Made by a program: the position numbers and the translations under genes. A DNA stretch of 64,000 bases from Acidimicrobiia bacterium (GTDB lineage Bacteria > Actinomycetota > Acidimicrobiia > Acidimicrobiales > Aldehydirespiratoraceae): positions 1 to 64,000 of the forward strand of contig JAJEEV010000010.1 of NCBI GenBank assembly GCA_022820805.1. Direction: 5' to 3'. Below the pieces are notes generated by a model that saw nothing but the letters and a program-made list of their open reading frames with translations, made no database searches and was not told the DNA's origin. Positions 769 through 24,308 of the stretch are shown here, piece by piece (position 1 is the stretch's first letter; each line of letters starts with the position of its first letter).

Positions 769-2220
769 CTAGTCGGCGAGGATCAGGGTCTTCAGGTCGC
801 TGTGGAAGTCGAGGGCGTGGTCTCCGCCCTCGCGGCCTATGCCGGAGAGGCCGCAGCCGCCGAACGGGGCGGACAGGTCGCGCACCAGGAAGGTGTTGGT
901 CCACACGATCCCGGCCCGCACCGCCCGGCCCACCCGCTCGGCGCGTTCGGCCGAGCCGGTGTAGACGATGGCGGACAGGCCGTAGCGGGTTGAGTTGGCC
1001 AGCTCGACGGCCTCAGCCTCGGTGGCGAACGTCTGGAGGGTGAGCACCGGTCCGAAGACCTCGCTCTGGACGATCTCGGAGTCGTTGGCGGCGGGCTCGA
1101 TCAGGGTGGGCTCGTAGTGCAGTGAGCCGGTCCGGCGCCGGCCGCCCCACACGATCGTGTCGCCTGCGGACCGGGCCCGGTCCACGAACGCCTCGACCCT
1201 GGCCAGATGGTCGGGATGGACCATCGGTGCGATGGTGGTGGCATCGTCGCGGCTGTCGCCCAGCACATGGGCCGCGGTGCGAGCCGCCAGAGCCTCCAGG
1301 AACTCGTCGCGGACCGCTGCCTCCACCAGCAGGCGGGTGCCGGCCAGGCACACCTGGCCCGAGTCCTCGTACTGGGCCGCGGCCTGTGCGGCCGCCGCCT
1401 CCAGGTCGCAGTCGGCGAACACGATCAGCGGGCCCTTGCCGCCCACCTCGGCGGTGAAGGGCACGATGTTGGCCGCCGCGGCGGCACCGATGCGGCGGGC
1501 CGTCTCGGGCGAGCCGGTGAAGCTGATGCGCCGCACCCTCGCGTCGGCGGTGAGGGCCGCGCCGACCTCGGAGCCGATGCCCTGCACCAGGTTGAAGACA
1601 CCCGCGGGCAGGCCTGCCTCCACCGTCAGGTCGGCCAGCACCGAAGCCGACAGCGGCGACCACTCGGCCGGCTTGAGCACCACGCTGTTGCCCGCGGCCA
1701 GCGCCGGGGCCACCTTCCAGGTGGCCAGCATGAACGGCGCGTTCCACGGCGTGATCACCACTGCCGGCCCGGCCGGCATGCGCTGCACGGTGTGGGTCGT
1801 GCCCCTCGCCGGCCAGCGGGGCTCGGCGTGGGCCTCGGCCATGTCCGCGTAGAACCGGAAGTTGAGCGCGCCCCGAGCCACCAGACGCTCCCGCATCGAG
1901 CGGTGCAGGAATCCCATGTCGAGCGTCTCGACCAGGGCGATGTCGTCGTTGCGCTCCTCTATCAGGTCGGCCACCCTCCGCAGGGCTGCAGCCCGCTCGC
2001 TCGCGTCTAGCTCGCTCCACACCCCGAAGCCGTCGACGGCCGCCCCGACGGCCCTCTCCGCGGCGGCCACGCCGCCCCGGGCGACATCGGCGAGCTTGCG
2101 GTCCCACTCCAGCGGCGAGCGGCACTCGAAGGTGTGCTCACCCGCGACCCGCTCACCACCGATCAGGTGGTCGACGCTGACCTCCACGCCACCGACCGCG
2201 GCCCGCGGCGACTCAGTCAT
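769..2220 (-). CDS. NAD(P)-dependent aldehyde dehydrogenase, probable carboxymethyl-hydroxymuconic semialdehyde dehydrogenase
   Basis: A 483-residue ALDH-superfamily enzyme that oxidises an aldehyde to the acid in the cytoplasm. The catalytic Glu lies in FTAEVGGKGP and the nucleophilic Cys in EDSGQVCLAGTR; ITPWNAPFM is the cofactor-binding strand. The ATG at 2220 is preferred over one at 2277 because the longer version would run through the hairpin element at 2245-2293. It is the last gene of a minus-strand block behind an HpaG-like hydrolase and a livKFHM importer. With the HpaD-like dioxygenase at 14078, this context suggests an HpaE-type role in homoprotocatechuate meta-cleavage. The substrate is inferred from context, since ALDH sequence alone does not fix it. 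Confidence 0.8.
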   Translation of the reverse strand: MTESPRAAVGGVEVSVDHLIGGERVAGEHTFECRSPLEWDRKLADVARGGVAAAERAVGAAVDGFGVWSELDASERAAALRRVADLIEERNDDIALVETLDMGFLHRSMRERLVARGALNFRFYADMAEAHAEPRWPARGTTHTVQRMPAGPAVVITPWNAPFMLATWKVAPALAAGNSVVLKPAEWSPLSASVLADLTVEAGLPAGVFNLVQGIGSEVGAALTADARVRRISFTGSPETARRIGAAAAANIVPFTAEVGGKGPLIVFADCDLEAAAAQAAAQYEDSGQVCLAGTRLLVEAAVRDEFLEALAARTAAHVLGDSRDDATTIAPMVHPDHLARVEAFVDRARSAGDTIVWGGRRRTGSLHYEPTLIEPAANDSEIVQSEVFGPVLTLQTFATEAEAVELANSTRYGLSAIVYTGSAERAERVGRAVRAGIVWTNTFLVRDLSAPFGGCGLSGIGREGGDHALDFHSDLKTLILAD

Positions 2221-2244
2221 CGCCACGCACTGCCGACGGCGTGG

Positions 2245-2293
2245 ATTCTCGGGAGAGTTCATGGGGCCATACGACACACAACTCTCCCGAGAT
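2245..2293. repeat. 49-bp hairpin element, copy 1
   Basis: Arms of 13 bases at 2247-2259 (TCTCGGGAGAGTT) and 2280-2292 (AACTCTCCCGAGA) are perfect reverse complements around a 20-base loop. The loop and right arm contain CATACGACAC and CTCCCGAGAT, shared with a second copy at 57152-57200 with identical spacing. The element lies between the hydrolase stop (2317) and the ALDH start (2220). It could act as a terminator or processing hairpin within the transcript. Confidence 0.7.
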
Positions 2294-2316
2294 TCTCAAG
2301 GGGGCGCGGGCGGTCA

Positions 2317-3204
2317 TCAGCCGCCGTCCTCCACCGCCGACTGGTAGTGGCGGGCGCCCGGGCCCCGGGGCGCCCGCTTGCCCCGGTGCTCCCAGTCGCC
2401 GCCCATGGCGGTGGAGACGACCTCCTCGCTGGCCGACGGCTGGGCGCCGACATCGGACCGCACCTCAGCCGGGCCGGACACGATCGTGTTGGTCAGGGCT
2501 CCGAGCCCCTCGACCTCCACCGTGACCACATCGCCGGGAACCACCGGACGAGAGTTGGCCGGCGTGCCCGACAGCACCAGGTCGCCCGGCACCAGCGTGA
2601 TCGTGCGGGCCAGGTCGGCCACCAGGTAGTGCATGTCCCACTCCATCTCGTCGGTGTTGCCGTCCTGGCGGACCTCGCCGTTGACCAGCGTCCGGACCTG
2701 CTTGCCGCGGAAGTCCCAGCCGGTGACCAGCGCAGGCCCGACCGGGCACAGGGTGTCGCCGCCCTTCACCCGCAGCATCGACCCGGCGTCGGTGTCGCGG
2801 AAGTCGTGCAGCCCGTAGTCGTTGGCCACGGAGTAGCCCGCGATGTAGTCGCCGGCCTCGCCGGGGGACACGTTGCGGCAGGTGCGGCCGATGACGATGG
2901 CGATCTCGCCCTCATAGTTGAGCCACCGGCACGGCTCGGGCCGCACCACGTCGGCGCCGTGGGAGTTGAGGGCCGTGATCGGCTTGTGGAAGTAGGTCGG
3001 GGCGGGTGGCAGCCGGGTCATGAACTCCGCGACGCGGCTCGAGTAGTTCAGGTGGACGCAGACGATCTTGGTCGGCTCGCACGGCGCCAGGTGCACCGCG
3101 TCGGCCACGGCCACCCGCCGGCCGTCGCGCGCCTCCAGCTCGTCGCCGTGCCGTTCGACCAGGGTGGGATACCCGTTGAGCAGGATGCGGCGGTACTCGG
3201 TCAC
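2317..3204 (-). CDS. Fumarylacetoacetate-hydrolase family protein, HpaG/HpcE-like isomerase or decarboxylase
   Basis: A 295-residue FAH-fold enzyme. The metal-binding acidic cluster is visible in LNYEGEIAIVIGR and in the downstream ANDYGLHDF; DLVLSGTPANS is the usual C-terminal FAH motif. Members act on 2-hydroxy-hepta-2,4-diene-dioates or related ring-cleavage products, as isomerases or decarboxylases. It follows the importer genes and precedes the aldehyde dehydrogenase, the pairing expected for the lower homoprotocatechuate pathway. E. coli HpaG is a double domain; this protein has a single one. The exact reaction cannot be read from the sequence. Confidence 0.82.
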   Translation of the reverse strand: MTEYRRILLNGYPTLVERHGDELEARDGRRVAVADAVHLAPCEPTKIVCVHLNYSSRVAEFMTRLPPAPTYFHKPITALNSHGADVVRPEPCRWLNYEGEIAIVIGRTCRNVSPGEAGDYIAGYSVANDYGLHDFRDTDAGSMLRVKGGDTLCPVGPALVTGWDFRGKQVRTLVNGEVRQDGNTDEMEWDMHYLVADLARTITLVPGDLVLSGTPANSRPVVPGDVVTVEVEGLGALTNTIVSGPAEVRSDVGAQPSASEEVVSTAMGGDWEHRGKRAPRGPGARHYQSAVEDGG

Positions 3205-3237: not shown

Positions 3238-5109
3238 TCAGCCGGCCGGCCCGGCGGCGGCAGCCCCGAGATAGGCGGCCTGCACCTGCGGGTCGGCGTG
3301 GATCTCCTCGGGGGTGCCGGCCGCGATGACGCGGCCCTGGTCGAGGCAGTAGATCCGGTCGCATACCCCGGTGATGAAGGCCAGGTCGTGGTCGATCACC
3401 ACAACACCGGCACCCACCGCGGCGGCCAGGGCCCGCACCTCGTCGATCATGTCCACCGACTCCACGTTGCTCATGCCGCTGGTCGGCTCGTCGAGCAGGA
3501 TGTACACGGGCGACAGCGCGGCGGCTCGCACCAGTTCCAGGCGCCGGGCATTGCCGTAGTCCAGCTCGCGGGCCCGGCGGTCTCGCATCTCCCACAACCC
3601 GGCGTGAACGAGGAGTTGCTCGACGGAGGGGCGGTCGCCGCCGGGCCGGTGCCGGGATGCGACCAGCGCCGCGATGTTGACGTTCTCGCGCACGGTGAGG
3701 GCCGGGAACAGCCGCAGGTTCTGGAAGGTGCGGGCCAACCCGGCCCGGGCGACCTCGAAGGGCTGGGCGCCGGCGATGGGGCAGGCCTCGGGCCCTCCGG
3801 CGGACTGCTCGGTCAGCGTGGCCGAGCCCCCGGTGGCCTCCACCAGACCGGTCACCACGTTGAGCAGGGTCGTCTTGCCCGCGCCGTTGGGACCGATGAG
3901 GCCCACGACCTCCAGGTTGGACGCTTCCAGTCCGGCCTTCTCCAGGGCTCGGAAGCCCCCGAAGTCCACGGTTATGTCGACCACGCTGAGTTGGGCCTCC
4001 TCGGGGGTCGGCGCGGCCCGCAGGGGCTCGGGCACGGCTTCGGCCCGGCCGAAGCGCCGGCGCAGCCAGTGGTCGATCTCCCAGTCCTCGATCAGTCCCC
4101 TGGCCCTGAAGATCATGAAGCCCAGCATCGACCCGCCCAGCACGATGTCGGTGAGACCGGGCCGCAGCACGATGTCGAGGGCCTCCGCGGGGCCGCCGTC
4201 GATCTCGACATCGGCAAGATGGCGGGTGGTCTCGTCGACGACGGTCATGAGGGCCACACCGAGCACCGAGCCGGCGATGCTGTTGCGCCCGCCGACGATC
4301 AGCATCACCAGGGTGAGCAAGGTGTAGTCGAAGAAGAAGGTCGACGGGGCCACCGTCCCGAGTTGGAACACCCGCAGCGACGCGGCCACCGAGACGACCG
4401 CCACCGACAGGACCAGAGCCACCATCTGCCCCCGTGCCGGGCTGATGCCCATAGCCCGGGCGGCCAAATCGTCCTCGCGGGCCGCTTGGGCCAGGCGCCC
4501 GATGCGGCTGCTCTTGAACAGCCGGGCGACCACTATGGCCGCGATCAGGGCAACGTAGATCCAGAGGCGGCTGTCGAGCCCCCGCCCGACCGAGAAGGAG
4601 ATCCCGTTGCGGCCTCCGGTCAGGTCGGCGTATGCGCCGCCCACCTCGTGGACCATGAACAGCAGGGCGAGGGTGATGACCGTGGCCGCCACCGCGCCCG
4701 ACTTGGCCCCGGACCGGGCCAGGCCCAGCCCGACCACCAGACCCACGACCACCGTGACAACCACGGCGGTGGCCGCGGCGGCCAGCGGGTTGAGCGACAC
4801 GCTGTCGAGGCCCAGGGGCACATCGGGAACGATCCGGGCCTTGCGCTCGACGGTGGTGGCCAGCAGCGCGAACGCGTAGCCGCTGATGGCCGCGAACCCC
4901 ATGTGCCCGAACGACAACACGCCGGTGTTGCCGATGTAGATCTGCAAACCGATCACCATGATGGCGTTGATGAGCATCTGCGTGACCAGGATGTCGCGAG
5001 CCGGGGCGCCACCGGAGGCGTAGGCCAGCCCGCCCAGCACCAGCACTGCGAAGAGCACCCCCGAGCCGGCCAGTTGCGAGCCGACCCGGCTCGACAGCAG
5101 TGCCTGCAT
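3238..5109 (-). CDS. Fused branched-chain-type ABC permease and ATPase (LivM::LivG)
   Basis: About 623 residues. The N-terminal half is a LivM-like permease with many hydrophobic helices and the motif YIGNTGVLSFGHMGF. The C-terminal half, from about residue 365, is a LivG-like ATPase with Walker A LIGPNGAGKTTLL and Walker B ILLDEPTSGM; its signature is degenerate (LDYGNARRLE). The fusion is seen in some actinobacteria. The ATG at 5109 is preferred over a GTG at 5142. It forms an importer with livH, livF and livK just upstream in the same transcript. The substrate is not necessarily an amino acid, since Liv-type systems also import aromatic acids and amides. Confidence 0.88.
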   Translation of the reverse strand: MQALLSSRVGSQLAGSGVLFAVLVLGGLAYASGGAPARDILVTQMLINAIMVIGLQIYIGNTGVLSFGHMGFAAISGYAFALLATTVERKARIVPDVPLGLDSVSLNPLAAAATAVVVTVVVGLVVGLGLARSGAKSGAVAATVITLALLFMVHEVGGAYADLTGGRNGISFSVGRGLDSRLWIYVALIAAIVVARLFKSSRIGRLAQAAREDDLAARAMGISPARGQMVALVLSVAVVSVAASLRVFQLGTVAPSTFFFDYTLLTLVMLIVGGRNSIAGSVLGVALMTVVDETTRHLADVEIDGGPAEALDIVLRPGLTDIVLGGSMLGFMIFRARGLIEDWEIDHWLRRRFGRAEAVPEPLRAAPTPEEAQLSVVDITVDFGGFRALEKAGLEASNLEVVGLIGPNGAGKTTLLNVVTGLVEATGGSATLTEQSAGGPEACPIAGAQPFEVARAGLARTFQNLRLFPALTVRENVNIAALVASRHRPGGDRPSVEQLLVHAGLWEMRDRRARELDYGNARRLELVRAAALSPVYILLDEPTSGMSNVESVDMIDEVRALAAAVGAGVVVIDHDLAFITGVCDRIYCLDQGRVIAAGTPEEIHADPQVQAAYLGAAAAGPAG

Positions 5110-5152
5110 CACACCGGCCTCACCACGGCCGCGGACCCCCACATCATGACCG

Positions 5153-6043
5153 TCACACCCGCTCCGCGGATCTCACGTACACCAGTCCCTGGGGCCGGAA
5201 GATGAAGAACAGAGCGATCAGCGCGAACACCACGCCGTCGGTGATGCCGACCAGGTCCTCGGGCAGCCAGGATCTCAGAAGCACTTCGGACACCCCGAGC
5301 AGGAGGCCGCCGTACACGGCTCCCCGCATGTTGCCGAGACCGCCGATTATGGCGGCCAGGATGCCCTTGAGGAGTGGGCTGAGACCGGTGGTGGGGCGGG
5401 CCTGGCCGGTGCGCATCAGGAAGAAGATCGCCGCGATCCCGGCCAGGGCGCCGGCCAGGATGAACGCCCGGCGGATCACCTTGTTGCTGCGCACGCCCAT
5501 GAGCCGGGCCGCGTCGAAGTCCTCGGCCGCGGCCCGCAGCGAGATGCCGAACATGGTGCGCTGCAGCAGGTACACGGTCACCGCCAAAGTGGCCGCCGTG
5601 GCCCCGATCACAGCGACGTCTATGACCTGGATGTTGAGGTCGCCGACCGACCAGACCCGGTCGGCCCACTCCGGGCGGGGAAAGCTGCGCACGCTGGCGC
5701 CCATGGTCATGACGAAGATGGCCTGGACCAGGAAGTGCACCGCGAACGATGTCAGCAGCATGGTGAAGTCGGAGGATCCCCGGACCCAGCGGAAGGCGAT
5801 GAACTCGATGGCGACCGAGGTGCCCACCGCGGCGCAGAAGACCAGCGGCACCGCCGCCCACCAGCCCCACCCTGCGGTGACGCCCACCGCGAAGGCCACG
5901 TAGGCGCTGACCGTGATGAGCTCGCCGTGGGCGAAGTTGACCATGTGCATGACACCGAAGATGACCGCGATCCCCAGCGCCAGAAGGGCATAGATCGAGC
6001 CCCGGCCCAGACCGTCGATCAGGCTCTGGACGAGGTCGATCAT
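5153..6043 (-). CDS. Branched-chain-type ABC transporter permease (LivH family)
   Basis: A 296-residue integral membrane protein with about eight hydrophobic segments. The N-terminus, GLGRGSIYALLALGIAVIFG followed by HMVNFAHGE, is the LivH signature. It overlaps livF by four bases (ATGA), which implies translational coupling. It is expected to pair with the LivM half of the fusion downstream to form the membrane channel. Length and composition are normal for the family. Confidence 0.9.
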   Translation of the reverse strand: MIDLVQSLIDGLGRGSIYALLALGIAVIFGVMHMVNFAHGELITVSAYVAFAVGVTAGWGWWAAVPLVFCAAVGTSVAIEFIAFRWVRGSSDFTMLLTSFAVHFLVQAIFVMTMGASVRSFPRPEWADRVWSVGDLNIQVIDVAVIGATAATLAVTVYLLQRTMFGISLRAAAEDFDAARLMGVRSNKVIRRAFILAGALAGIAAIFFLMRTGQARPTTGLSPLLKGILAAIIGGLGNMRGAVYGGLLLGVSEVLLRSWLPEDLVGITDGVVFALIALFFIFRPQGLVYVRSAERV

Positions 6044-6777
6044 GCCTGCGGCAACGCTGACGAGTCCGGGCGGTCGGAGACGCCCACGAACGTGTCGAAG
6101 AGGTCTTCACGGGCGAGCAGGTCCGATGCCCGGCCCTGAGCCGCGATCTCGCCGGTGCGCAGCACGTAAGCCCGGTCGGCCACATCCAGCAGGCGGGTGG
6201 CGTTCTGCTCGACGACCAGCATGGTCCGTCCCTCGGTGCGCAGACGGCCGATGAGGTCGAACACGAAGTCGACCAGCACCGGTGCCAAACCCAGCGACGG
6301 CTCGTCCATCAACACGATGCGCGGGCTGCTCATGAGAGCCCGGGCGATGGCCAACTGCTGGGCCTCGCCGCCGGACAGGTACCCGGCTGCTGTGGCCCAC
6401 TTGTCCTTCAGAACCGGGAACAGCTCCACCATCTCGTCGAGGCGCTCGGCCCGCTCGTCGGCGGAGACGGTCACACCGCCGATGCGCAGGTTCTCGACCA
6501 CCGTCATCTGGGCGAACAGCCGGCGGTGCTCGGGCACCAGCGCCAGGCCGGACCTCAGCATCCGGTCGGGGCTGTAGCCGGTGACCGGCCTCCCGTCTAG
6601 GACCACCTCGCCCTGAGCGGGACGCAGCAGCCCGGCGACGGTGTTGAGCATCGTCGTCTTGCCCGCGCCGTTGGGCCCGATGAGGCCGACGACCTCATTG
6701 GCTCCAACGGAGAGGCTCACCCGGCGCAGCGCCGAGATAGCCCCGTAGCGGGTGGTGAGCCCGGATACCTCGAGCAT
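6040..6777 (-). CDS. Branched-chain-type ABC transporter ATP-binding protein (LivF family)
   Basis: A 245-residue ATPase with Walker A LIGPNGAGKTTM, signature YLSGGEAQQLAIARAL, Walker B IVLMDEPSLGLAP and the switch region LVVEQNA. It would drive import together with the fused LivG domain. It overlaps livH by four bases and starts about 50 bases after the livK stop, so the four transporter genes are co-transcribed on the minus strand. Confidence 0.9.
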   Translation of the reverse strand: MLEVSGLTTRYGAISALRRVSLSVGANEVVGLIGPNGAGKTTMLNTVAGLLRPAQGEVVLDGRPVTGYSPDRMLRSGLALVPEHRRLFAQMTVVENLRIGGVTVSADERAERLDEMVELFPVLKDKWATAAGYLSGGEAQQLAIARALMSSPRIVLMDEPSLGLAPVLVDFVFDLIGRLRTEGRTMLVVEQNATRLLDVADRAYVLRTGEIAAQGRASDLLAREDLFDTFVGVSDRPDSSALPQA

Positions 6778-6826: not shown

Positions 6827-8173
6827 CTACTGCATCCTGGCGGCGAGGGCGGTCTGCCCGTCGACGATCTGCAGGATGTACACCGGCGTGTCGGGGGTGC
6901 CGTCGGTTCCGGCGTAGCCGATCGTGTCGGTGACCGCCTCGACGCCGCTCAGGCTCGCGATCGCCTCGGCGATGGCCAGCGGGTCGGTCGACCCGGCGTC
7001 GATGAATCCCTGGATGGCGACGGTGATTGCGTCGCCCGCGAGGGCCGCGAAGCCGGGGGCTTCGCTGGGCATTCCCGCGGCCGCCAGACCGTCGTTGAGA
7101 CGCTGGTACCGGTTGTTGTCGACACCGAAGCCGTGATCGGTCCAGTAGACGCCCTCGTTGTTGTCGATGACCGTGATGCCACTTACACCGAACGCGTCAG
7201 CGCCGAAGTAGACGATGCTGTCGATGCCGCGCTCCTCGATGGCACCGCGCAGAGCGTCGAGCTGGGGAGCGATCATGGCGGTGTAGAGGATCTCGGTGCC
7301 GTCGGCCGCGCCGGCCACCTCGTTGGCGTGGGAGGCGAAGTCGAAGTCCTCGAAGGGCACGTAGCTCACGTCGAGCACCAACTCGCCGCCGAGTTCTTCG
7401 AACTTGGCCGCGAACGTCTCGGGGTTGTACCCGAAATAGGGGCCCTCCGACGAGAACGTGATGGCCCGGGTGATGCCGTTGTCGATGGCGAACTGGGCCG
7501 CGGCCTCTGCCTGCTGGGTGTCGCTGAAGGTGGTCATGAACGAGTAGATCGACGGATCCGGCAGCACCGGCTCGGTCGAGGCCACGAAGATCACCGCCCG
7601 GCTGGCGTTGACGGTCTGGAGCACCGCGTCGCCGACATCGGCGAACGGCGGACCGAGGATCACGTGGGCGCCGGCGTCGAGCAGGTCGGCGGTGGCCCGC
7701 TGGGCGACCTCGGGGTTGCCCTGGACGTCCTCGATCACGAGCGCCACGGGGTGCCCGCCCACGCCGCCGGCGCAGTTGATCAATGACACGTAGTACCCCG
7801 CGGCCTCCGATATCGGGATGTCAGCGAAGCCGCCCACCTCGGACAGATCCGCCGCGAATCCGATGATGAACGGATCCCCTGTCGGTGCCGGGCCGCAGTT
7901 GTCCAGGTCGGCATCGAGCGCCGCGTCGACGTCGAAGCTCATCTCCATGGCCATGTCCTCTTCCTCGGCCATGGGCTCCTCGGCCATCTCCTCCTCTTCA
8001 GCCATCGGCTCCTCGGCCATCTCCTCCTCCTCGGCCATGGGCTCCTCGACGGCGGGAGCGGCCGTGGTGGTGGCGGCGGGGGCCTCAGCGGCGTCTTCCT
8101 CGTCGTCGCCGCAAGCGGCGGCCACAAGCGCCAGCACGGCGAGAGAAGCGACCAACAGTCTGTTCAGTCTCAT
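6827..8173 (-). CDS. Periplasmic-binding lipoprotein of the Liv-type importer (LivK family)
   Basis: A 448-residue type-1 periplasmic binding protein. The N-terminus is a lipoprotein signal peptide ending in the lipobox LVAAAC. Next comes an acidic, low-complexity stalk (about residues 42-75) built from three copies of EEPMAEEEEMA. The binding domain follows (PFIIGFAADLSEVGG, then ILGPPFADVGD). It is the first gene of the importer block and faces the MarR gene. Its start lies about 50 bases downstream of a likely promoter that overlaps the MarR palindrome at 8238-8257. The stalk probably spaces the domain from the membrane and varies between relatives. Confidence 0.9.
   Translation of the reverse strand: MRLNRLLVASLAVLALVAAACGDDEEDAAEAPAATTTAAPAVEEPMAEEEEMAEEPMAEEEEMAEEPMAEEEDMAMEMSFDVDAALDADLDNCGPAPTGDPFIIGFAADLSEVGGFADIPISEAAGYYVSLINCAGGVGGHPVALVIEDVQGNPEVAQRATADLLDAGAHVILGPPFADVGDAVLQTVNASRAVIFVASTEPVLPDPSIYSFMTTFSDTQQAEAAAQFAIDNGITRAITFSSEGPYFGYNPETFAAKFEELGGELVLDVSYVPFEDFDFASHANEVAGAADGTEILYTAMIAPQLDALRGAIEERGIDSIVYFGADAFGVSGITVIDNNEGVYWTDHGFGVDNNRYQRLNDGLAAAGMPSEAPGFAALAGDAITVAIQGFIDAGSTDPLAIAEAIASLSGVEAVTDTIGYAGTDGTPDTPVYILQIVDGQTALAARMQ
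7949..8047 (-). repeat. Three in-frame 33-bp repeats in livK
   Basis: Three consecutive 33-base units encode the 11-residue peptide EEPMAEEEEMA (the last ending EEDMA). The unit keeps the reading frame, so copy number could change by slippage and lengthen or shorten the acidic stalk without breaking the protein. Confidence 0.85.
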
Positions 8174-8237: not shown

Positions 8238-8257
8238 TCCGTTTGGTAGCAAACGAA
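8238..8257. promoter_or_regulatory. Probable MarR operator, livK/marR intergenic region
   Basis: TCCGTTTGGTAGCAAACGAA is an inverted repeat (arms TCCGTTTG and CAAACGAA, 7 of 8 pairing) between the divergent livK and marR genes. An AT-rich CATAATAT at 8231-8238 next to it supplies a -10-like box on both strands (TATTAT for livK). Binding would block both promoters. Related palindromes occur at 11953 and 21379. Confidence 0.7.
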
Positions 8258-8272
8258 ATAGGGGTCCCCGAA

Positions 8273-11919: not shown

Positions 11920-11952
11920 GGCGACACGATAATCACTCGGGCCGACGCCTTG

Positions 11953-18709: not shown

Positions 18710-18831
18710 CAGGCCGAGCCGGAAGGTCGCCCGCACTCCTCAACACCACCGCAACAGTCTCAACTAGGATCGCGTTCAGCAGTCGACCCGAGCTCGTGAG
18801 GCCGGCGGCTTGACACAGCGGGAGAAGTGCC

Positions 18832-19953
18832 ATGCTGTCCATCCACAGGAGAGTCCTGTTCGCCGTCCTTGTCTTGTTGACGCTGGTGGCGGCTGCCTGC
18901 GGCAGTGACAGCGAACCGGCGACGGGCACTGAGAGCCCGCCGGCCCCGGCCGAATCCGAGCCGTCGGGACCCGCGGAGGCTGAGCCGGAGGCGGCGCTGC
19001 CCGGCCAGGGCGTCACGGTCGCAATGGGCCGGGGAAACTGGGTCGAGACGAACTTCCAGAACTTCGTGGTCCAGCTGCTGCTCGAGGAACTCGGTTACGA
19101 CGTCTCCGACCCCGAGGAGATCGCGCCGGCGACCTTCTACCCGGCGGCCGCCCAGGGCGACTTCGACTTGTGGGCATCGGCGTGGCCCTTCAACCACACT
19201 CCGTTCCTGGAGAGCGAGAGCCCCGGCGGAGGCACGCTCGGCGACAGCGTCGGGTATATCGGCACGATGCTGGCCTCGGGGGCCCTGCAGGGCCTCCTCG
19301 TCGACATTCCCAGCGTCGAGCAGTTCGGCTTCAGCACCCTCGGAGAGCTGCTCGACAATCCGGATGCGGTCGCCCATTTCGACAGCGACGGCGACGGCAA
19401 GGCCGACATCAACGGCTGCGACGACGGCTGGGGCTGCCAGAAGGTCATCGACGACACGCTCGCCAAGAACGGGTGGGACGACCGCGCTGCGCAGATCTCG
19501 GCCACCCATTCGGCGTTGTTCGCAGAGTCGCAGGCCAGCTTCGCCGGAGGCGGGCCCGTCCTGCAGTACGTCTGGACGCCGACCGCCTTCGTCGGGAAGC
19601 TCGTCCCGGGAAGGGACGTGCTGTGGCTCGCAATCGAGCCGGAGGAGACCCTCGATGGCCAGGACGGCGTCTCCGACGTCGGCGACGCCTGCACCAACGA
19701 TCCGTGCACAACGATGTTCACCCCGTCCGACATCGTGGTCGCGGCCAACAAGGAGTTCCTGGCCGCCAACCCGGCCGCGGCCTCGTTGCTCAGGGACTTC
19801 GAACTCGACCCGCTGGCGGTGGCCGTTCAGGCGGTCGCCATCGACGCCGGGGCCAACACCGACGCAGAGATAAAGGCTGCGGCCGCCGAATGGATCGCGG
19901 CCAACCGCGCCCGCATCGACCCGTGGATCGAAGCCGCTCTGGCGGCGGGGTGA
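18832..19953 (+). CDS. Glycine betaine/proline-type substrate-binding lipoprotein (ProX/OpuAC family)
   Basis: 373 residues. A lipoprotein signal ends in LVAAAC and is followed by an Ala/Glu/Pro linker. The OpuAC domain starts VTVAMGRGNWVETNFQNF and contains DFDLWASAWPFN, the tryptophan-rich region that forms the quaternary-amine cage in relatives. It follows proW by 122 bases in the same direction. It would deliver glycine betaine, proline betaine or a similar compound to the permease. The homocysteine methyltransferase at 28279 could use betaine, but it is not adjacent. Confidence 0.85.
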   Translation: MLSIHRRVLFAVLVLLTLVAAACGSDSEPATGTESPPAPAESEPSGPAEAEPEAALPGQGVTVAMGRGNWVETNFQNFVVQLLLEELGYDVSDPEEIAPATFYPAAAQGDFDLWASAWPFNHTPFLESESPGGGTLGDSVGYIGTMLASGALQGLLVDIPSVEQFGFSTLGELLDNPDAVAHFDSDGDGKADINGCDDGWGCQKVIDDTLAKNGWDDRAAQISATHSALFAESQASFAGGGPVLQYVWTPTAFVGKLVPGRDVLWLAIEPEETLDGQDGVSDVGDACTNDPCTTMFTPSDIVVAANKEFLAANPAAASLLRDFELDPLAVAVQAVAIDAGANTDAEIKAAAAEWIAANRARIDPWIEAALAAG

Positions 19954-19992: not shown

Positions 19993-21351
19993 TCAGTGGT
20001 AGGGCAGGTACTGCCCCAACTCCCATGCGGTCAGGGGCTCGTCGCCGGTGATTGCATCCCAGTCGCTCACGGCCTCGTCGCCCACACCGGCGGTGTAGCG
20101 GTCCCATTCGGCCCGCTTGTTGTACACGAAGTTGGCGCACAGCTCCGAGCCGACCGCCCCGCAGAGGGCGTCGTCGGCCTCCATGTCGTCGAGGGCGGCG
20201 CTGAGGCTGTGGGCGCAGTGGACGTCGGTGTTGATCTCGTCGAAGCCGTCGGTGGTCATGGGACCCGGGCACTCCAGCCCGCCCGCGACGCCTAGCCGGG
20301 CCGCCTGCAGCACGGTGGCCACCAGGGTGTGGACGTTGGCCGCGCCGTCGCCGATGCGGCTCTCGATGCGCATGTGGGATCCGGCGCCCCGCGGCACGCG
20401 GTTGCCGGCGCAGCGGTGCTCCACACCCCAGTTGGCCCAGTAGCCGTTGAGCTGTCCGTGGCGCAGGCGGCGGTAGGCGTTGACGGTCGGAGCGGAGAGC
20501 GCCGTCATCCCCCTGTGATGGTGGATGAGGCCCGCCATGCATCCCCGGGCCAGGTCGGACATGCCGTGGTCGCCGGACGCATCCGACATGGCGTTGTTGC
20601 CCTCGGCGTCGGCCAGGGAGAAGTTCACATGGACGCCGGTGCCGGAGATGCCCGGGAACGGCTTGCCCAGGAAGGTCAGGTCGAGGCCGAGGGGCCGGCC
20701 TGCCGCGTCGGTGGCGGTCATCACCGTCTCGCGGGCCAGCAGCCGGAACAGGAAGGCGTTGTCGGCGGCCCACATGGCGTCGCCGTACTCGAGGGTCAGC
20801 TCGAACTGGCCCTCGTCGTACTCGGCGTTGACCGACTCCATGGCGATGCCCGACGCCTCGGCCCGCCGCACGAGCTTGGTGATCACGCCGCCGGGATCGG
20901 AGGCGACGCCGGTGCCGTAGACCATCGCACCGGGCGTGTCGTAGGGCCGGGGATCGCTCAGGCCGCCGCTGAACACGTAGGCCTCCAGCTCGATCCCGAC
21001 CTTGGGCGTGTACCCGAGGGCCTCCCAGTCGGCAACGGCCCGGCGCAGCGCCTCCCGGGGCGACACCGGCAGGGACTCGCCGTGCATGGACAGGTCTCCG
21101 ATGACCACGCCGGTGGCGTCGTCGTCCCAGCCCTGCCGTATGTCGCCGGTGTCGAAGCTGATCTGGGTGTCGGGCAGACCGTCGAGCAGGTAGGCACCCG
21201 GCGCGGGCACCATGCTGCGGTCATAGCCCAGCGCGAAGACGCACACGCAGTGGCTGGTGCCCTTGTGGGCCAGCCGGGCCGGCAGGTACTTGCCCCGGGC
21301 CAGCCCGAGGTGGTCGGGCCACAGCACCCTTACGCGATCCCAGTCCGTCAT
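19993..21351 (-). CDS. Glutamine-synthetase-like gamma-glutamyl amide ligase
   Basis: A 452-residue protein of the GlnA fold. The glutamate- and metal-binding motif is GIELEAYVF, the beta-sheet motif is GTGVHVNFSL, and the C-terminal active-site stretch is SHMRIESRIGDGAANVH. The N-terminal part starts WDRVRVLWPDHLGLARGKYLP, as in GlnA-like amine ligases (PuuA, IpuC, GlnT) rather than housekeeping GlnA. It would ligate glutamate to an amine with ATP. GGGAG stands seven bases before the ATG. A palindrome like the MarR sites lies just upstream at 21379. A class I amidotransferase (14935) and a PuuD-like hydrolase (23598) could remove the glutamyl group. Confidence 0.8.
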   Translation of the reverse strand: MTDWDRVRVLWPDHLGLARGKYLPARLAHKGTSHCVCVFALGYDRSMVPAPGAYLLDGLPDTQISFDTGDIRQGWDDDATGVVIGDLSMHGESLPVSPREALRRAVADWEALGYTPKVGIELEAYVFSGGLSDPRPYDTPGAMVYGTGVASDPGGVITKLVRRAEASGIAMESVNAEYDEGQFELTLEYGDAMWAADNAFLFRLLARETVMTATDAAGRPLGLDLTFLGKPFPGISGTGVHVNFSLADAEGNNAMSDASGDHGMSDLARGCMAGLIHHHRGMTALSAPTVNAYRRLRHGQLNGYWANWGVEHRCAGNRVPRGAGSHMRIESRIGDGAANVHTLVATVLQAARLGVAGGLECPGPMTTDGFDEINTDVHCAHSLSAALDDMEADDALCGAVGSELCANFVYNKRAEWDRYTAGVGDEAVSDWDAITGDEPLTAWELGQYLPYH

Positions 21352-21418: not shown

Positions 21419-22642
21419 TCACACCGGAGCCTCGTCGTGTTCGGGGTAGAGGCCGGTACGGCCCAGGCGGTCCAGGCACACCTCCACGCTCCAGGGAAGC
21501 ATGGCGGCCCCGCAACGGGCGTCGCGGTAGGCCTGCTCGAGGTAGGACGGTCTCAGCATGCTGCGGCCCCCGCACACCTGAAGGGCCACCGACGCCATCG
21601 CCGGCGCTCCCTCCATGACGGTCACAACCGAGGACCACGCCCGCCGCACCTGCTCGGCGCTGGGATCGACACCGCACTCGCCGAGCACCCGGTAGGTCAG
21701 CGACTGGGCCCGGTCGTAGGTCAGGTTCATCTGGGCCCAGCCCTGCTGCTTGATGGGGTGGTCCCGGCGGGCCGGTCCCCCGCCGCCCTCGCCGCGCAGG
21801 TAGGCGCCGGTGGCGTCGAGGATCCCCCGCATGAGGCCCAGGTAGGCGAACGACAGCGTCATGTAGAAGTAGGGCCACCGGGTCGCGGCCTGATCGAAGA
21901 CGCCCGGCGGGAGCCACTCGTTTCCGGCCGGCACGAGGGCTCCGTCCATCACCAGGTTGCGGGAGTCGGTGCCTCTCATTCCCAACGGGTCCCAGTCCCC
22001 CTCGATGGTCGCCCCCTCCGCGTCGGCGGGAACGCCCATGAAGCGGATCCGGTCGTCGCCGGGCACCAGGCAGACGACGTTGTGGATGTGGGCCGCGCCC
22101 GACAGCGAGGCGAAGATCTTTCGACCCGTCACGCGGTAGCCGCCGCCTGCGCCGTCGACGGGGACGGCCCGGGTGGAGTAGCCCGCAGTGGCTCCTGCCG
22201 CCGCCCCCTCCGAGAAGGGCTGGCTGTGGATGCTGCCGTCCTCGACGATGCCTCGCCGCAGCTCGGACCGTCGCTCGGCCAGCAGCGACCTCTCGGCCGC
22301 GTCGAGGTCCAGGTCGTCGGCGATCTGGCCCACCAGGATCGTGGTGGCCGTGTGCATGTTGAAGGTGAGCGCGGTGGTGGCGCAGTGCCGGCCCAGCTCC
22401 TCGGCCACCAGGGCGTAGCCCACGAAGTCCCCACCGAGCCCGCCGTCGGAGGTGGGGATGCACAGCCCGAGCAGTCCGGCATCGCGCAGGTCGGCCCAGT
22501 TCTGGGTGGGGAAGGTGGCGTCACGGTCGTGCGAGGTGGAGCGCTCGGCGAAGCTGGGCCCCAGCAGGGCCATGCGCTCCACCAATGCGGCCCGCTCGGG
22601 CGTGACGATGTCTGCTGCTAGTCCCACGCGCCGATCACTCAC
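21419..22642 (-). CDS. Acyl-CoA dehydrogenase family protein
   Basis: 407 residues with the ACAD layout: N-terminal helices with LGLCIPTSDGGLGGDFVGYALVAEELG, a central beta domain (KIFASLSGAAHIH) and a C-terminal helical domain ending QVCGGRSMLRPSYLEQAYRD. The usual catalytic glutamate position is not clear to me. The family includes flavin-dependent N- and C-hydroxylases that do not act on CoA esters. The start chosen is a GTG (VSDRR). It shares the minus strand with the ligase at 19993, with a 67-base gap holding the palindrome. Confidence 0.82.
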   Translation of the reverse strand: MSDRRVGLAADIVTPERAALVERMALLGPSFAERSTSHDRDATFPTQNWADLRDAGLLGLCIPTSDGGLGGDFVGYALVAEELGRHCATTALTFNMHTATTILVGQIADDLDLDAAERSLLAERRSELRRGIVEDGSIHSQPFSEGAAAGATAGYSTRAVPVDGAGGGYRVTGRKIFASLSGAAHIHNVVCLVPGDDRIRFMGVPADAEGATIEGDWDPLGMRGTDSRNLVMDGALVPAGNEWLPPGVFDQAATRWPYFYMTLSFAYLGLMRGILDATGAYLRGEGGGGPARRDHPIKQQGWAQMNLTYDRAQSLTYRVLGECGVDPSAEQVRRAWSSVVTVMEGAPAMASVALQVCGGRSMLRPSYLEQAYRDARCGAAMLPWSVEVCLDRLGRTGLYPEHDEAPV

Positions 22643-22725
22643 TCGCCAAATGTACCGATCGCGCCCTGCTGTGGCCCAAACAAGCCGCCTACGGCCCACC
22701 TGGAGGGCGCGCAGATAGGGGCAAC

Positions 22726-23589
22726 TCAGATGGCCCACCTGGGGGCGGAGGGGGCCAAGTCCGGAGGGCCGGCGAGGAAGTCCCGCACGATGCGGTTGAA
22801 CGTTTGCGGGGCCTCCGAGGCGGCCAGGTGGCCTATCCCGTCGAGCACCACCAGCTCGGCTCGCGGCAGTCCGTCGGCGAGGACGCGGGAATAGGTCACG
22901 GGAGTCTCGGCGTCGAGTTCCCCGGCTATGACGAGCGCAGGCGAGCCGATCTCGCCCAGCCGCTCCCGCACGTCGTGGGACGGGAGGCAGTCGACCGCAG
23001 CTCGCAGTCCGTCCGCCGGGATGCGAGCGAAGCCGGCGACCCTCATGCCCAGCGCCTCGCGGCTGAGTCCCGGCCCGGCAATGGCAGTCAGGACGTCCTC
23101 GGCCATGTCGGCCGGAGCGAGGCCGGCGTCCAGGGGGTCTAGACGAGTGGCGCGCCACTCGCCGGGGTCGGTGCCGTCGAGGCCGAAGGCCGGGCTGGTG
23201 TTGGCCAGCACGAGCCGGCCGACCCGGTCGGGATGGCGCAGGGCGACATGCAGGGCGTGCATGCCTCCGAAGGACTCGCCGACCAGATGGGCCCGCCTCA
23301 CCCTCGCCGCGTCAAGGAGCCGAGCCACCGCGTCAGCGATGGCGGTGAACGTCAGCGGCTGCACCGGGGCGGATGCGCCGTAGCCCGGCATGTCCCAGGC
23401 GATGCACCGGAACGCGCCGCCCAGGCCGTTGAGTTGCGGCTCCCACGATGTCCGGCTGCCGCCCAGTCCGTGCAGGAAGAGCACCGGGTCGCCGGCGCCG
23501 CGCTCGCGCCAAGCCAGCGGGCCGTCAACGTCGGAGGCACCGGGCACGGCAGCAGGGTCTGACGGCTCGGCCACGACCGGAACGTACAC
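22726..23589 (-). CDS. Alpha/beta hydrolase, 3-oxoadipate enol-lactonase-like
   Basis: About 287 residues. The oxyanion motif is LFLHGLGGSRTSW, the nucleophile elbow is GESFGGMHAL, and the catalytic Asp and His are in GELDAETPVTYS and LDGIGHLAASEAP. Relatives hydrolyse lactones, esters or ring-fission products, which fits the aromatic-degradation context, but the substrate is unassigned. Possible GTG starts are at 23589 and 23574. The start is only eight bases from that of the divergent hydrolase gene at 23598, so the two promoters must overlap the opposite coding regions. Confidence 0.8.
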   Translation of the reverse strand: MYVPVVAEPSDPAAVPGASDVDGPLAWRERGAGDPVLFLHGLGGSRTSWEPQLNGLGGAFRCIAWDMPGYGASAPVQPLTFTAIADAVARLLDAARVRRAHLVGESFGGMHALHVALRHPDRVGRLVLANTSPAFGLDGTDPGEWRATRLDPLDAGLAPADMAEDVLTAIAGPGLSREALGMRVAGFARIPADGLRAAVDCLPSHDVRERLGEIGSPALVIAGELDAETPVTYSRVLADGLPRAELVVLDGIGHLAASEAPQTFNRIVRDFLAGPPDLAPSAPRWAI

Positions 23590-23597
23590 TCTCGCCC

Positions 23598-24308
23598 ATG
23601 TCAAGCGCACCGCTCATCGGCATCACGGGCCGGACCAAGACCGCAGGCGAGCTCAACATGAAGCCCGAGACGTTTCGAGACCTGCACCTGGACGTGTACT
23701 ACTGCGACTACGCCCGCGCGGTGATCTCCGCGGGGGGCTTGCCGGTCTTTCTTCCCGTCAGCGCGGACCCTGCCCGGTACGCGGACCGCCTCGACGGGCT
23801 GCTGCTGAGCGGCGGCACCGACATCGAGCCGGAGCGCTACGGCCAGGCGCCCTCCGCCGAGCTGTACACCCGTGAACCGGAACGGGACGCCTTCGAGCTG
23901 GCCCTGCTCGACGGCGCGGCCGACGCCGGGAAGCCCGTGCTCGGCATCTGCCGGGGCATCCAGGTGCTGAACGTGCACGGTGGAGGCACGCTGCACCAGC
24001 ACATCGCCCCCCACGCCTGCCACGACCAGCCGCCCGACTCGATCGTGCACCGGGTCGATCTCACCGAGGGGTCGCTGGCCGCGTCGCTGTACGGTCCGTC
24101 GATCCGGGTCAACTCGCTGCACCACCAGACCATCGACGATCTCGCCGACGGCTACTCGGCGACCGGGCGCAGCGACGACGGCGCCGTCGAGGTCATCGAG
24201 GCCCACCGCCGGCCGTGGATGGGGGTGCAGTGGCACCCCGAACTCATGGGCTCCCGCGACTCCGACCCCGTCTTCGACTGGCTGGTGCAGGCGGCCGCGA
24301 CAGGCTGA
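23598..24308 (+). CDS. Gamma-glutamyl hydrolase, PuuD-like (peptidase C26)
   Basis: A 236-residue class I amidotransferase-fold hydrolase. The nucleophile is in LGICRGIQVLNVHGGGTLHQHI, characteristic of PuuD, and the His-Glu pair is in GVQWHPELMG; VNSLHHQTID is also typical. PuuD removes glutamate from gamma-glutamyl-GABA in the glutamylated putrescine pathway. Here it stands near a PuuA-like ligase (19993), so it may release the product of a glutamylated amine pathway. It is followed by a convergent P450 14 bases away. Confidence 0.85.
   Translation: MSSAPLIGITGRTKTAGELNMKPETFRDLHLDVYYCDYARAVISAGGLPVFLPVSADPARYADRLDGLLLSGGTDIEPERYGQAPSAELYTREPERDAFELALLDGAADAGKPVLGICRGIQVLNVHGGGTLHQHIAPHACHDQPPDSIVHRVDLTEGSLAASLYGPSIRVNSLHHQTIDDLADGYSATGRSDDGAVEVIEAHRRPWMGVQWHPELMGSRDSDPVFDWLVQAAATG

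Follow-up and report, generated by a model that had tools for sequence, protein, structure and literature searches.

Known pathways and the gene cluster in the window

The gene cluster analyzed here resembles parts of four described systems. In the Ipu system of Paenarthrobacter aurescens TC1 (plasmid pTC1, CP000475), a GS-like ligase is combined with a P450 acting on the gamma-glutamyl amide and with an amidotransferase-type hydrolase. In the aniline and 1-naphthylamine systems (AtdA1-A2, TdnQT, NpaA1), a GoaS-type ligase is encoded beside a class I amidotransferase and ring oxygenation follows, according to excerpts of PMC11335346. The other two are the meta-cleavage of the HPA pathway and the Puu pathway. 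The cluster spans positions 769-24308 of a window of 64,000 nt from an Acidimicrobiia bacterium (Aldehydirespiratoraceae; GCA_022820805.1, contig JAJEEV010000010.1, positions 1-64,000, forward strand), by which we mean the whole stretch of DNA that was analyzed.

All three Ipu elements have likenesses in the cluster, and an ALDH and an SDR are found nearby in both systems. The C26 hydrolase of the window is 40% identical to the amidotransferase of the pTC1 Ipu cluster, as compared to 33% to PuuD. However, the pTC1 stretch that was fetched contains no ring-cleavage genes, IpuC is 29% identical to the window ligase, and a ferredoxin and a reductase adjoin in the Ipu cluster. Our ORF caller, which works from GC content by codon position and can miss small genes, detected no ORF of ferredoxin size in the region. 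The aniline and 1-naphthylamine systems employ a Rieske-type dioxygenase, whereas the window cluster has a P450 and HpaD/E/G-like enzymes; none of the window proteins that were compared with Pfam has a Rieske domain, and the aniline ligase belongs to another clade.

The cluster shares HpaD-, HpaE-, HpaG- and HpaR-like proteins with the HPA pathway, but adds an ADC-fold protein, the ligase and the hydrolases. The Pfam scans of window proteins revealed no HpaB domain, and a 485-aa gene at locus L120 that was considered as HpaB proved to be an amino acid permease. With Puu it shares a GS-like ligase, a PuuD-like hydrolase and an ALDH, although ligase and hydrolase score far below the equivalog cut-offs of PuuA (179 bits, cut-off 650) and PuuD (82.1 bits, cut-off 266). 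PuuB was found in none of 88 stretches and a PuuE-like gene in one. No description of this gene combination was found in the titles or abstract openings of the open PMC papers that were matched.

The original prediction was a pathway of gamma-glutamylated aromatic amines feeding meta ring cleavage. Profile scans of the window proteins identified open frames for every enzyme class that it named: PLP decarboxylase, ligase, hydrolases, P450, LLM, LigB, FAH, ADC, ALDH and Liv importer (Table 1). Of its two P450s, P450 a lies inside the region and P450 b starts just outside; the amidotransferase that it placed at 14935 exists, with an ORF starting at 14923. The LLM enzymes and the transporters are present in the window and variable among loci. 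Its list held neither the HpaR-like MarR protein, the acyl-CoA-dehydrogenase-fold protein, the alpha/beta hydrolase nor the ProWX-type transporter. The Cys/His of both amidohydrolases, the heme Cys, the ALDH Glu/Cys and the PLP Lys, motifs that we take to be catalytic, are intact.

With a probability of roughly one half, we read the locus as a catabolic cluster in which HPA-type meta-cleavage is run on a gamma-glutamyl-protected aromatic alkylamine.

Table 1. Features of the region in the window (columns: feature, position, strand, evidence or occurrence)
ALDH, HpaE-like; proposed ring-cleavage semialdehyde dehydrogenase, possibly for the terminal aldehyde too	769..2220	-	TIGR02299 best
FAH-fold decarboxylase/isomerase, HpaG-like	2317..3204	-	PF01557
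Liv-type importer, whole	3238..6777	-	profile matches
LivM-LivG fusion	3238-5109	-	part of Liv-type importer
LivH	5153-6043	-	part of Liv-type importer
LivF	6040-6777	-	part of Liv-type importer
Liv-type substrate-binding lipoprotein	6827..8173	-	
MarR regulator, HpaR-like	8243..8776	+	PF01047; 51% to L131_9
Group II PLP decarboxylase, aromatic amino acid type, accessory	8811..10211	-	PDB matches
LLM oxidoreductase 1, variable	10224..11159	-	TIGR03619 F420 family, above cut-off
SDR oxidoreductase, variable	11161..11925	-	
ADC-fold protein, MppR-like; proposed hydratase/retro-aldolase	11974..12798	+	PDB relatives
P450 a; proposed glutamyl-amine oxygenase (ring hydroxylase or O-demethylase)	12795..14078	+	
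LigB-family extradiol dioxygenase, HpaD_Fe-like	14078..14938	+	TIGR02298
Class I amidotransferase-fold hydrolase (GATase), aniline-plasmid-like	14923..15651	+	28% to pLME1 GATase
LLM oxidoreductase 2, variable	15641..16588	-	TIGR03619, above cut-off
ProWX-type transporter, accessory	16724..19953	+	in 4 loci including the window (ORF-caller count)
ProW-like permease	16724-18709	+	part of ProWX-type transporter
ProX-like binding protein	18832-19953	+	part of ProWX-type transporter
GS-like ligase, GoaS type, own clade; predicted to act on amines (gamma-glutamyl-amine ligase)	19993..21351	-	PF00120, alignment, tree
Acyl-CoA-dehydrogenase-fold flavoprotein, possible monooxygenase	21419..22642	-	37/80 loci (best 80 of 314)
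Alpha/beta hydrolase; NCBIfam best PcaDC/PcaD, below cut-off	22726..23610	-	38/80 loci (best 80 of 314)
Peptidase_C26 (C26) putative gamma-glutamyl hydrolase, PuuD / Ipu-amidotransferase-like	23598..24308	+	40% to pTC1 protein
P450 b, just beyond 769-24308	24322..25707	-	conserved in genus

The ligase has lost the ammonium site

The window ligase matched PF00120 with 219.7 bits. According to the alignment, the ammonium-site residues are replaced (D50->P, Y179->V, E327->L), and the residues of the metal, ATP and glutamate sites are retained (E129, E131, E212, E220, H269, R321, R339, R344, R355, E357 and R359). According to PMC11335346, the glutamyl organic amide synthetases (GoaS) lack two residues, Asp50' and that of the Glu flap. 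The flap residue is printed there as Glu357; here E357 is kept in 20 of 20 aligned rows and E327 is lost.

In the tree, the ligase belongs to a clade of its own with 12 rows (support 100/100). This clade sits within a 17-row set (96/95) that also includes PuuA, IpuC and the aniline ligase, the latter represented by the pLME1 protein instead of AtdA1 itself, and that excludes GlnA. In this tree, E. coli GlnA and PuuA form long branches. The window ligase falls outside the IpuC branch. Housekeeping GS identity was rejected, since the ammonium site is lost and the ligase lies apart from GlnA in the tree. As for the housekeeping or polyamine-only GlnA grouping against which the original prediction was to be checked, the ligase groups neither with GlnA nor with PuuA alone. 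Thus, the ligase fits GoaS by its residues and its grouping, and is predicted from sequence to glutamylate an amine.

Conservation and linkage of the genes

Among 61 relatives, 21 genomes encode both the ligase and LigB, two the ligase only, none LigB only (>=54% identity) and 38 neither, with mixed presence and absence within four genera. The presence and absence of ligase, LigB and ADC agree almost one to one; two weak matches are omitted from these counts (LigB 34% in genome G024, ADC 36% in genome G048), and the Fisher values ignore kinship.

Neighbors were also scored in the fetched flanks of the best 80 of 314 ligase relatives, using identity thresholds set by hand prior to the control. 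These counts were redone with tblastn and replace those of the ORF caller, except for the ProWX figure. Twelve of the 80 loci (L057-L067, L078) are from the genus of the window, on the same contigs as in the set of 61 relatives, and several more are from family genomes also in that set. An HpaD-like dioxygenase was found in the flanks of 39 of the 80 loci, accompanied by ADC in 35, P450 a in 37, C26 in 28, FAH in 18 and ALDH in 16. Without the 12 own-genus loci, the dioxygenase remained in 29 of 68, with ADC in 26, P450 a in 27, C26 in 18, FAH in 15 and ALDH in 13. FAH and ALDH are close to the dioxygenase in less than half of the loci, for which contig ends are partly responsible. LigB was located elsewhere in 23 of the remaining 41 genomes, 21 of which also have FAH, and 16 of the 80 genomes lack both LigB and FAH; the whole-genome searches covered the LigB type, and the VOC type was scored at loci only.

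The gene set was found across several phyla, and in the Chloroflexota and Deinococcota loci a VOC dioxygenase takes the place of LigB. As controls, 25 stretches of 15-20 kb were used, 20 from a single contig of one relative and five from the own genome that were originally fetched for other purposes. By the same criteria as for the loci, all 17 scored genes gave zero matches in the controls; one own-genome stretch (L163) contains an HPA-like ALDH (44%) and FAH (32%), both below the thresholds. A chance neighborhood was rejected based on the conserved linkage in relatives and the absence of matches in the 25 controls. The co-occurrence that the original prediction had proposed as a check is thus observed in relatives as well as in other phyla. 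The family identities, the loss of the ammonium site, the intact motifs and the conserved linkage are established.

The exceptions to this linkage bear on a rival explanation that we consider unlikely, although it survives best among the alternatives: two neighboring pathways, namely an HPA-like operon whose substrate is a phenol without an amine group, which may be ordinary homoprotocatechuate, and an Ipu-like system of GS, P450 and hydrolase for an alkylamine. The ligase and LigB modules are on different contigs in genomes G016, G025 and G021; C26, relatives of which are common (51 of 61 genomes), accompanies LigB in the first two and the ligase, away from LigB, in G021. That C26 is more similar to the Ipu amidotransferase than to PuuD also counts against the preferred reading. 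Eleven loci (L100 to L128) are from genomes with no LigB or FAH, and still contain relatives of P450 a (10 of 11) and GATase (9 of 11). On two Roseobacter plasmids, the genes for GATase, P450 and ligase adjoin phenylacetate paa genes, and around the ligase no relatives of LigB, ADC or FAH passed the thresholds (locus L139 searched). Both types of loci suggest that P450 a does not necessarily work in ring cleavage. The own genome has a single LigB match, and the substrate of LigB could therefore just be free homoprotocatechuate. Its contig C3 contains a separate group of ALDH, HpaF-like (52.6 of 215 bits), HpaG-C-like and HpaH genes, only HpaH being above cut-off, and no LigB relative was found among these. 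Against two separate pathways are the nearly one-to-one presence of ligase, LigB and ADC in the 61 genomes, the position of P450 a, which is a direct neighbor of LigB with the same orientation in 29 of 32 loci, and the gene order in Novosphingobium and Anaerolineales, where the ligase gene stands among those for ADC, FAH and dioxygenase.

The original prediction did not foresee a group of loci that has lost LigB or never had it but retains ligase, P450 and GATase.

The putative ring-cleavage module

TIGR02298 (HpaD_Fe) was the sole NCBIfam match of LigB at E<=1e-20 (125.9 bits, cut-off 315.95). For the ALDH, HpaE (TIGR02299) was best (478.4 bits, cut-off 638.35); the protein is 66% identical to a ligase-adjacent ALDH of Novosphingobium, 44% to that on contig C3 and 39% to PuuC. 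The FAH protein matched the generic NF009399 best (223.5 of 444 bits) and TIGR02303 (HpaG-C) second (193.3 of 276.4 bits); it is 75% identical to its Novosphingobium relative, and its presence follows that of LigB across genomes. The window MarR protein gave no NCBIfam match at E<=1e-20, and its relative L131_9 matched HpaR best (53.9 bits, cut-off 121.2). The VOC dioxygenases at loci L120 and L132 also match HpaD below cut-off. That the HpaD, HpaE, HpaG and HpaR likenesses are all below the family cut-offs suggests HPA-like chemistry on a different substrate.

The closest solved structure to the ADC-fold protein is MppR, and its Lys130 aligns with the Lys of the GxPK motif in all four PDB relatives. 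Relatives of HpaF and HpaH were absent from the 88 stretches (queried with the own-genome HpaH and HpaF-like protein) and HpaI-like genes were found in three, so the lower steps would depend on the putative role of ADC or on genes elsewhere.

A substrate with the amine directly on the ring, such as aniline or aminophenol, is improbable to a still greater degree than two separate pathways. It would undergo glutamylation and meta-cleavage with a P450 in place of the Rieske oxygenase, and the decarboxylases would be unrelated neighbors. The aniline plasmid encodes the same pair of ligase and class I amidotransferase, each about 28% identical (the GATase over 160 aa), E327 is replaced by L in both ligases, and LigB matches 2-aminophenol dioxygenases too. 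However, HpaD outscores these (73.8 vs 43.6 bits) and is the top score, the likeness to HpaE, HpaG, HpaR and HpaD implies that the side chain is of CH2 type, the cluster repeatedly includes PLP decarboxylases, and the PuuD/Ipu-type hydrolase is outside the aniline set. A biosynthetic cluster with L-DOPA-type extradiol cleavage, as for lincosamide or pyrrolobenzodiazepine precursors, is very improbable: it agrees with the MppR-like ADC protein, the P450s and the LLM enzymes, but no NRPS or PKS domain was found among the window proteins scanned with profiles, the HpaR-, HpaE- and HpaG-like genes and the importers indicate catabolism, and the genes are distributed over several phyla.

P450 a shows its greatest similarity to the CYP125/124 group, which is known for steroids and branched lipids; this observation speaks against the preferred reading.

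Proposed pathway

Returning to the preferred reading, cleavage of a glutamyl-protected arylalkylamine, the cluster common to several bacterial groups probably serves to couple an aromatic amine to glutamate, to open the ring and then to remove the glutamate. We infer the substrate, all reactions, their order and the ADC role as follows. The amine would be imported, or produced from an aromatic amino acid where the PLP decarboxylase is present, and the ligase would couple its amino group to glutamate. The P450 would convert the ring to a catechol, a step that the acyl-CoA-dehydrogenase-fold flavoprotein might carry out in some genomes, and the catechol would be opened by LigB or, in the Chloroflexota and Deinococcota loci, by the VOC dioxygenase. 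The HpaE-like ALDH would oxidize the semialdehyde, the HpaG-like FAH protein may carry out decarboxylation and isomerization, and the ADC-fold protein may hydrate the product and cleave it by retro-aldol reaction to release pyruvate. The glutamylated aldehyde would then be oxidized, and C26 and/or the class I hydrolase would free the glutamate. The tag would keep the free amine from cyclizing onto the ring-cleavage aldehydes.

A more specific version is tentative: tyramine or phenethylamine would pass as the gamma-glutamyl amide through hydroxylation and HPA-type meta-cleavage and leave by a Puu exit. If carbons are counted as in the HPA pathway, the products of gamma-glutamyl-dopamine would be pyruvate and gamma-glutamyl-4-aminobutyraldehyde; the latter is a Puu intermediate and would explain the PuuD-like hydrolase. 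The HpaE-like ALDH would act again to form gamma-glutamyl-GABA, and C26 would split this into GABA and glutamate. Glutamate would be the single protecting group of the entire route, and the ADC-fold protein the joint hydratase/retro-aldolase in place of HpaH and HpaI. The CHMSD of the HPA pathway oxidizes succinic semialdehyde too, according to excerpts of PMC12718150.

If true, this would be an undescribed way of degrading aromatic amines, such as those derived from tyrosine. Arylalkylamines would join simple amines and anilines as targets of glutamate tagging, and the opening of a catechol with a free-amine side chain without self-cyclization would be explained. The HPA and Puu pathways would be joined via one common intermediate, and a new role would be predicted for ADC-fold proteins.

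Link to aromatic amino acid decarboxylation

The analysis supports the proposed link of aromatic amino acid decarboxylation to the cluster, as an accessory step. The best PDB matches of the window PLP decarboxylase are tyrosine and DOPA decarboxylases (420.5 bits), and its best NCBIfam match is DABA decarboxylase (142.9 of 900 bits). The Anaerolineales cluster contains a 41% relative of this protein and a tyrosine-decarboxylase-like gene, and the PLP decarboxylase of the Nitriliruptoraceae cluster is near the aromatic ones. The link is less clear in Deinococcales, where two decarboxylases have DABA/PanP decarboxylases as top scores. The window adds Acidimicrobiia to these groups. On two Roseobacter plasmids, the paa genes for phenylacetate beside GATase, P450 and ligase also agree with an aromatic amine. 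The link is limited in extent, as a decarboxylase is present in 7 of the best 80 of 314 loci. Of the 14 genus genomes with the ligase, four have it inside the cluster or no more than ~8 kb away; the genome counts were made at E<=1e-30 and include relatives of 28-45% identity.

Many uncultured Acidimicrobiia have these genes. Judging by record names, some of the carriers are presumably from sponges, and the pathway, if the reading is right, may contribute to the turnover of aromatic amines there.

A NicX-like module was an unforeseen observation outside the best explanation, and a NicX-type pyridine branch was considered as a further reading. The NicX-like protein had no Pfam or NCBIfam matches and was recognized by the PDB search.

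Gene content of the cluster

Of the components of the original prediction, the decarboxylase, ligase, two hydrolases, dioxygenase, FAH protein, ADC protein, ALDH, LLM enzymes and Liv importer are all present in the cluster. The genome is GC-rich, with 3.40 Mb in 53 contigs, and 94.8% complete. Two P450s had been placed within the same range; one lies inside and the second begins just beyond it. The original observation is borne out, and more strongly than could be seen when it was made. Judged from sequence comparison, a GoaS ligase and gamma-glutamyl hydrolases are joined to a homoprotocatechuate (HPA)-type ring-opening module, in a set conserved in several phyla.

Features of the cluster, its surroundings and related loci (G000, source genome; C, contigs of that genome; L, fetched DNA stretches)
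Feature	Setting and proposed role	Coordinates
Whole cluster	window	769-24308
HpaE-like ALDH	cluster, ring/side-chain enzyme	
HpaG-like FAH protein	cluster, ring/side-chain enzyme	
ADC protein	cluster, ring/side-chain run	11974-12798
P450 a	cluster, ring/side-chain run	12795-14078
LigB (HpaD_Fe-like dioxygenase)	cluster, ring/side-chain run	14078-14938
GATase (class I amidotransferase-fold hydrolase)	cluster, ring/side-chain run	14923-15651
Aromatic-type PLP decarboxylase	cluster, amine side	
GS-like ligase	cluster, amine side	19993-21351
C26 (Peptidase_C26 hydrolase)	cluster, amine side	23598-24308
Liv importer	cluster, transport	
ProW-like permease and ProX-like binding protein	cluster, transport	16724-19953
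HpaR-like MarR regulator	cluster, regulation	
LLM enzymes	cluster, remaining enzymes	
SDR	cluster, remaining enzyme	
ACAD (acyl-CoA-dehydrogenase-fold protein)	cluster, remaining enzyme	
Alpha/beta hydrolase	cluster, remaining enzyme	
P450 b	window, first gene of adjoining block	24322-25707
P450 b - LLM3 - TauD dioxygenase - homocysteine S-methyltransferase	window, adjoining block	24322-29262
Fic-domain protein	window	37363-38511
ALDH - HpaF-like - HpaG-C-like FAH - HpaH	source genome (L163)	G000:C3:90-4947
NicX-like gene	ligase loci	L072:16289-17371; L048; L054; L121; L124
NicX-like gene	source genome	G000:C17:16939-17958
DUF3156-type gene	Chloroflexota clusters	L120:5413-5985; L123:8538-9122; L116

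The ProW/ProX pair has no ATPase gene between its members; an ABC ATPase-like stretch adjoins the ProW homologue in three relatives (G006, G008 and G010). The block beginning with P450 b adjoins the cluster in many genus members.

The ligase is set apart from GlnA

Aligned with E. coli GlnA, the ligase retains all eleven listed metal, ATP and glutamate residues and carries changes at the ammonium site (D50 to P, Y179 to V and E327 to L). In a 20-row tree it falls into a 12-row clade (support 100/100) including Acidimicrobiia, Nitriliruptoraceae, Kineosporia, Anaerolineales, Deinococcales, Novosphingobium and Ruegeria. This clade groups with PuuA, IpuC and the ligase of the aniline plasmid, away from GlnA, with GlnA and PuuA as long branches. 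The grouping with housekeeping or polyamine-only GlnA that would have counted against the original suggestion was not seen. By these sequence features the enzyme is a predicted GoaS in the sense of PMC11335346. That paper gives Glu357 as the flap residue lost in GoaS, whereas E357 is present in every row of our alignment and the residue lost is E327. In the source genome no glutamine synthetase reaches the NCBIfam cut-off for the GlnA type (best 252.4 of 429.15 bits); the other GS genes are on contigs C14 and C38.

Ligase, LigB and ADC travel together

Among 61 relatives, the ligase was present in 23 genomes (E<=1e-60), a LigB match in 22 (identity at least 54% in 21) and an ADC match in 23 (at least 62% in 22). 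These 21 LigB and 22 ADC genomes all fall within the 23 ligase genomes (Fisher p = 2e-14 for ligase-LigB and 1e-15 for ligase-ADC, p values that ignore kinship), the exceptions among the 23 being G003, with ligase and ADC without LigB, and G033, with the ligase alone. In the family minus the genus, LigB was found in 7 of 8 ligase genomes versus 0 of 13 others (p = 7e-5, ignoring kinship), and four genera (g1, g2, g3 and g8) each mix members with both genes and members with neither. The co-occurrence looked for in other genomes is thus evident in the relatives, and the set recurs in several phyla. C26 relatives are widespread (51/61 genomes); where the modules are split, C26 goes with the ADC-P450-LigB-GATase run in G016 and G025, and with the ligase in G021.

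The ligase loci analyzed further out (L057-L136) are the best 80 of 314 relatives from a scan of species genomes, taken with flanks of at most 10 kb, many shortened by contig ends. An HpaD-like dioxygenase was found in the flanks of 39 loci (LigB 34, VOC 5), together with P450 a (37), ADC (35), C26 (28), alpha/beta hydrolase (27), ACAD (25), GATase (22), FAH (18), ALDH (16) and the HpaR-like regulator (16). The other 41 loci held P450 a (18), GATase (18), C26 (15), ALDH (5), FAH (3) and ADC (2). Leaving aside the 12 loci of the window's genus, the dioxygenase was present in 29 of 68, accompanied by P450 a (27), ADC (26), C26 (18), FAH (15) and ALDH (13). Twenty-five control stretches, judged by the same criteria, gave no match for any gene scored. 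P450 a adjoins LigB on the same strand in 29 of the 32 loci holding both. On a Novosphingobium plasmid the order is dioxygenase, P450, ligase, ALDH, (cytochrome b), ADC, FAH, ALDH and 2Fe-2S protein. The dioxygenase of this set carries the annotation catechol 1,2-dioxygenase and is related to HpaD_Fe (130.1 bits). In the Chloroflexota clusters the DUF3156-type gene has the ligase and an amino acid/ethanolamine-type permease as neighbors.

Of the 41 genomes whose ligase locus lacks a dioxygenase, 23 encode LigB elsewhere and 23 encode FAH (both 21, LigB only 2, FAH only 2, neither 16; p = 4e-7, ignoring kinship). Eleven loci from LigB- and FAH-free genomes (L100, L101, L103, L104, L107, L108, L109, L113, L114, L122 and L128) retain the ligase, accompanied in 10 cases by a P450 a relative and another GS-like gene and in 9 by GATase. 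They possibly represent a different amine pathway using the same glutamate tag.

Proposed homoprotocatechuate-type chemistry on a modified substrate

For the window LigB, HpaD_Fe was the sole family match at E<=1e-20, well below the equivalog cut-off. HpaE was the best family for the ALDH, HpaR for a 51% relative of the MarR regulator and HpaD for the VOC dioxygenases of loci L120 and L132, all well under their equivalog cut-offs; for the FAH protein, HpaG-C ranked second behind a generic FAH model, also well under cut-off. The presence of sister families of HPA enzymes next to a ligase suggests that HPA chemistry is applied here to a modified substrate.

LigB could alternatively serve a plain HPA pathway, because the source genome has a single LigB match. 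The lower HPA-type steps may be shared in trans, since a separate group on contig C3 carries HpaH over the cut-off, beside HpaF-like (52.6 of 215 bits) and HpaG-C-like (151.4 of 276.4) genes. HpaH was found near the cluster in none of the 88 stretches searched, and HpaI-like genes in three (L079, L084 and L085, near 13.3-14.1 kb; 57-58% to the source-genome copy; 153.1 of 368.8 bits to TIGR02311 in L084), which also carry HpaE-like ALDH or ADC. The ADC protein, nearest to MppR and with its Lys130 aligned to the GxPK-motif lysine of each of the four solved relatives, would stand in for HpaH and HpaI.

In the HPA pathway the opened ring is oxidised, decarboxylated, hydrated and split by a retro-aldol step into pyruvate and succinic semialdehyde, and CHMSD can also oxidise the succinic semialdehyde (PMC12718150). 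By analogy, the same steps on a CH2-CH2-NH-glutamyl side chain would yield pyruvate and gamma-glutamyl-4-aminobutyraldehyde, whose oxidation would give gamma-glutamyl-GABA, the PuuD substrate. If true, this route would account for a set that unites a ligase, one ALDH and a PuuD-fold hydrolase. SSADH-like genes, under cut-off, lie close to the ligase in L093 and in L082/L045, the latter two being one contig, and are consistent with it. The isopropylamine pathway offers a precedent for P450 action on a glutamylated amine (PMC6776027). HPA-type meta-cleavage of a gamma-glutamyl arylalkylamine is given a probability of roughly 0.52; the exact route from tyramine or dopamine, drawn by analogy, is less likely than not.

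Several points do not fit. P450 a is closest to the CYP125/CYP124 group, and a relative of it persists in 10 of the 11 LigB-free loci (GATase in 9), so that it need not serve ring cleavage. C26 resembles PuuD (33%) less than it does the Ipu-cluster amidotransferase (40%), and a GABA transaminase-like gene is close by in 1 of 88 stretches.

Evidence for an aromatic amine

The closest PDB matches of the window decarboxylase are tyrosine/DOPA decarboxylases; in NCBIfam, DABA decarboxylase ranks top for it and for the L120 enzyme, at lower scores than for the Deinococcales PLP decarboxylases (L111 and L132; best families DABA and PanP decarboxylases). In two Anaerolineales loci (L120 and L123) a 41% relative is accompanied by a tyrosine-decarboxylase-like gene (TIGR03811) and by an amino acid permease. 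Three Nitriliruptoraceae loci (L115, L119 and L127) have one PLP decarboxylase, the L115 enzyme being closest to 4obu and then to tyrosine decarboxylase. The proposed link to aromatic amino acid decarboxylation is supported by decarboxylases at or close to the cluster in several lineages, yet in only 7 of 80 ligase loci. Among the 61 relatives the PLP decarboxylase is more widespread (39 genomes at E<=1e-30; 22 of 23 with ligase, 17 of 38 others). Of the 14 genus genomes with ligase, 4 have it inside the cluster or close by: the window genome, G006, G010 and G008, the last at a distance of about 8 kb.

In Ruegeria sp. TM1040 (NC_008043, L139) and Tritonibacter mobilis (NZ_CP110385, L195), counted as one observation because the loci are 86-98% identical, a GATase-P450-ligase run adjoins the paaABCD phenylacetate genes. 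This hints at a phenethylamine route ending in phenylacetate, and suggests that the P450 a relative there may release arylacetaldehyde instead of building a catechol. Taken at the sequence level, the evidence for an aromatic amine as substrate is suggestive, not decisive.

A possible NicX-like branch and a further window gene

A further feature that the proposed route does not accommodate is a NicX-type dioxygenase (2,5-dihydroxypyridine dioxygenase family; PDB match 7cn3, E 4e-54), which occurs with the ligase in 24 of the 80 loci, commonly next to ACAD and alpha/beta hydrolase. The window cluster retains these two genes, and the source-genome NicX is on another contig (59% identity). NicX may open rings on a second branch or belong to a route for a pyridine by-product. 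Farther along the window, the gene for the Fic-domain protein lies close to UvrD helicase and GMP synthase genes.
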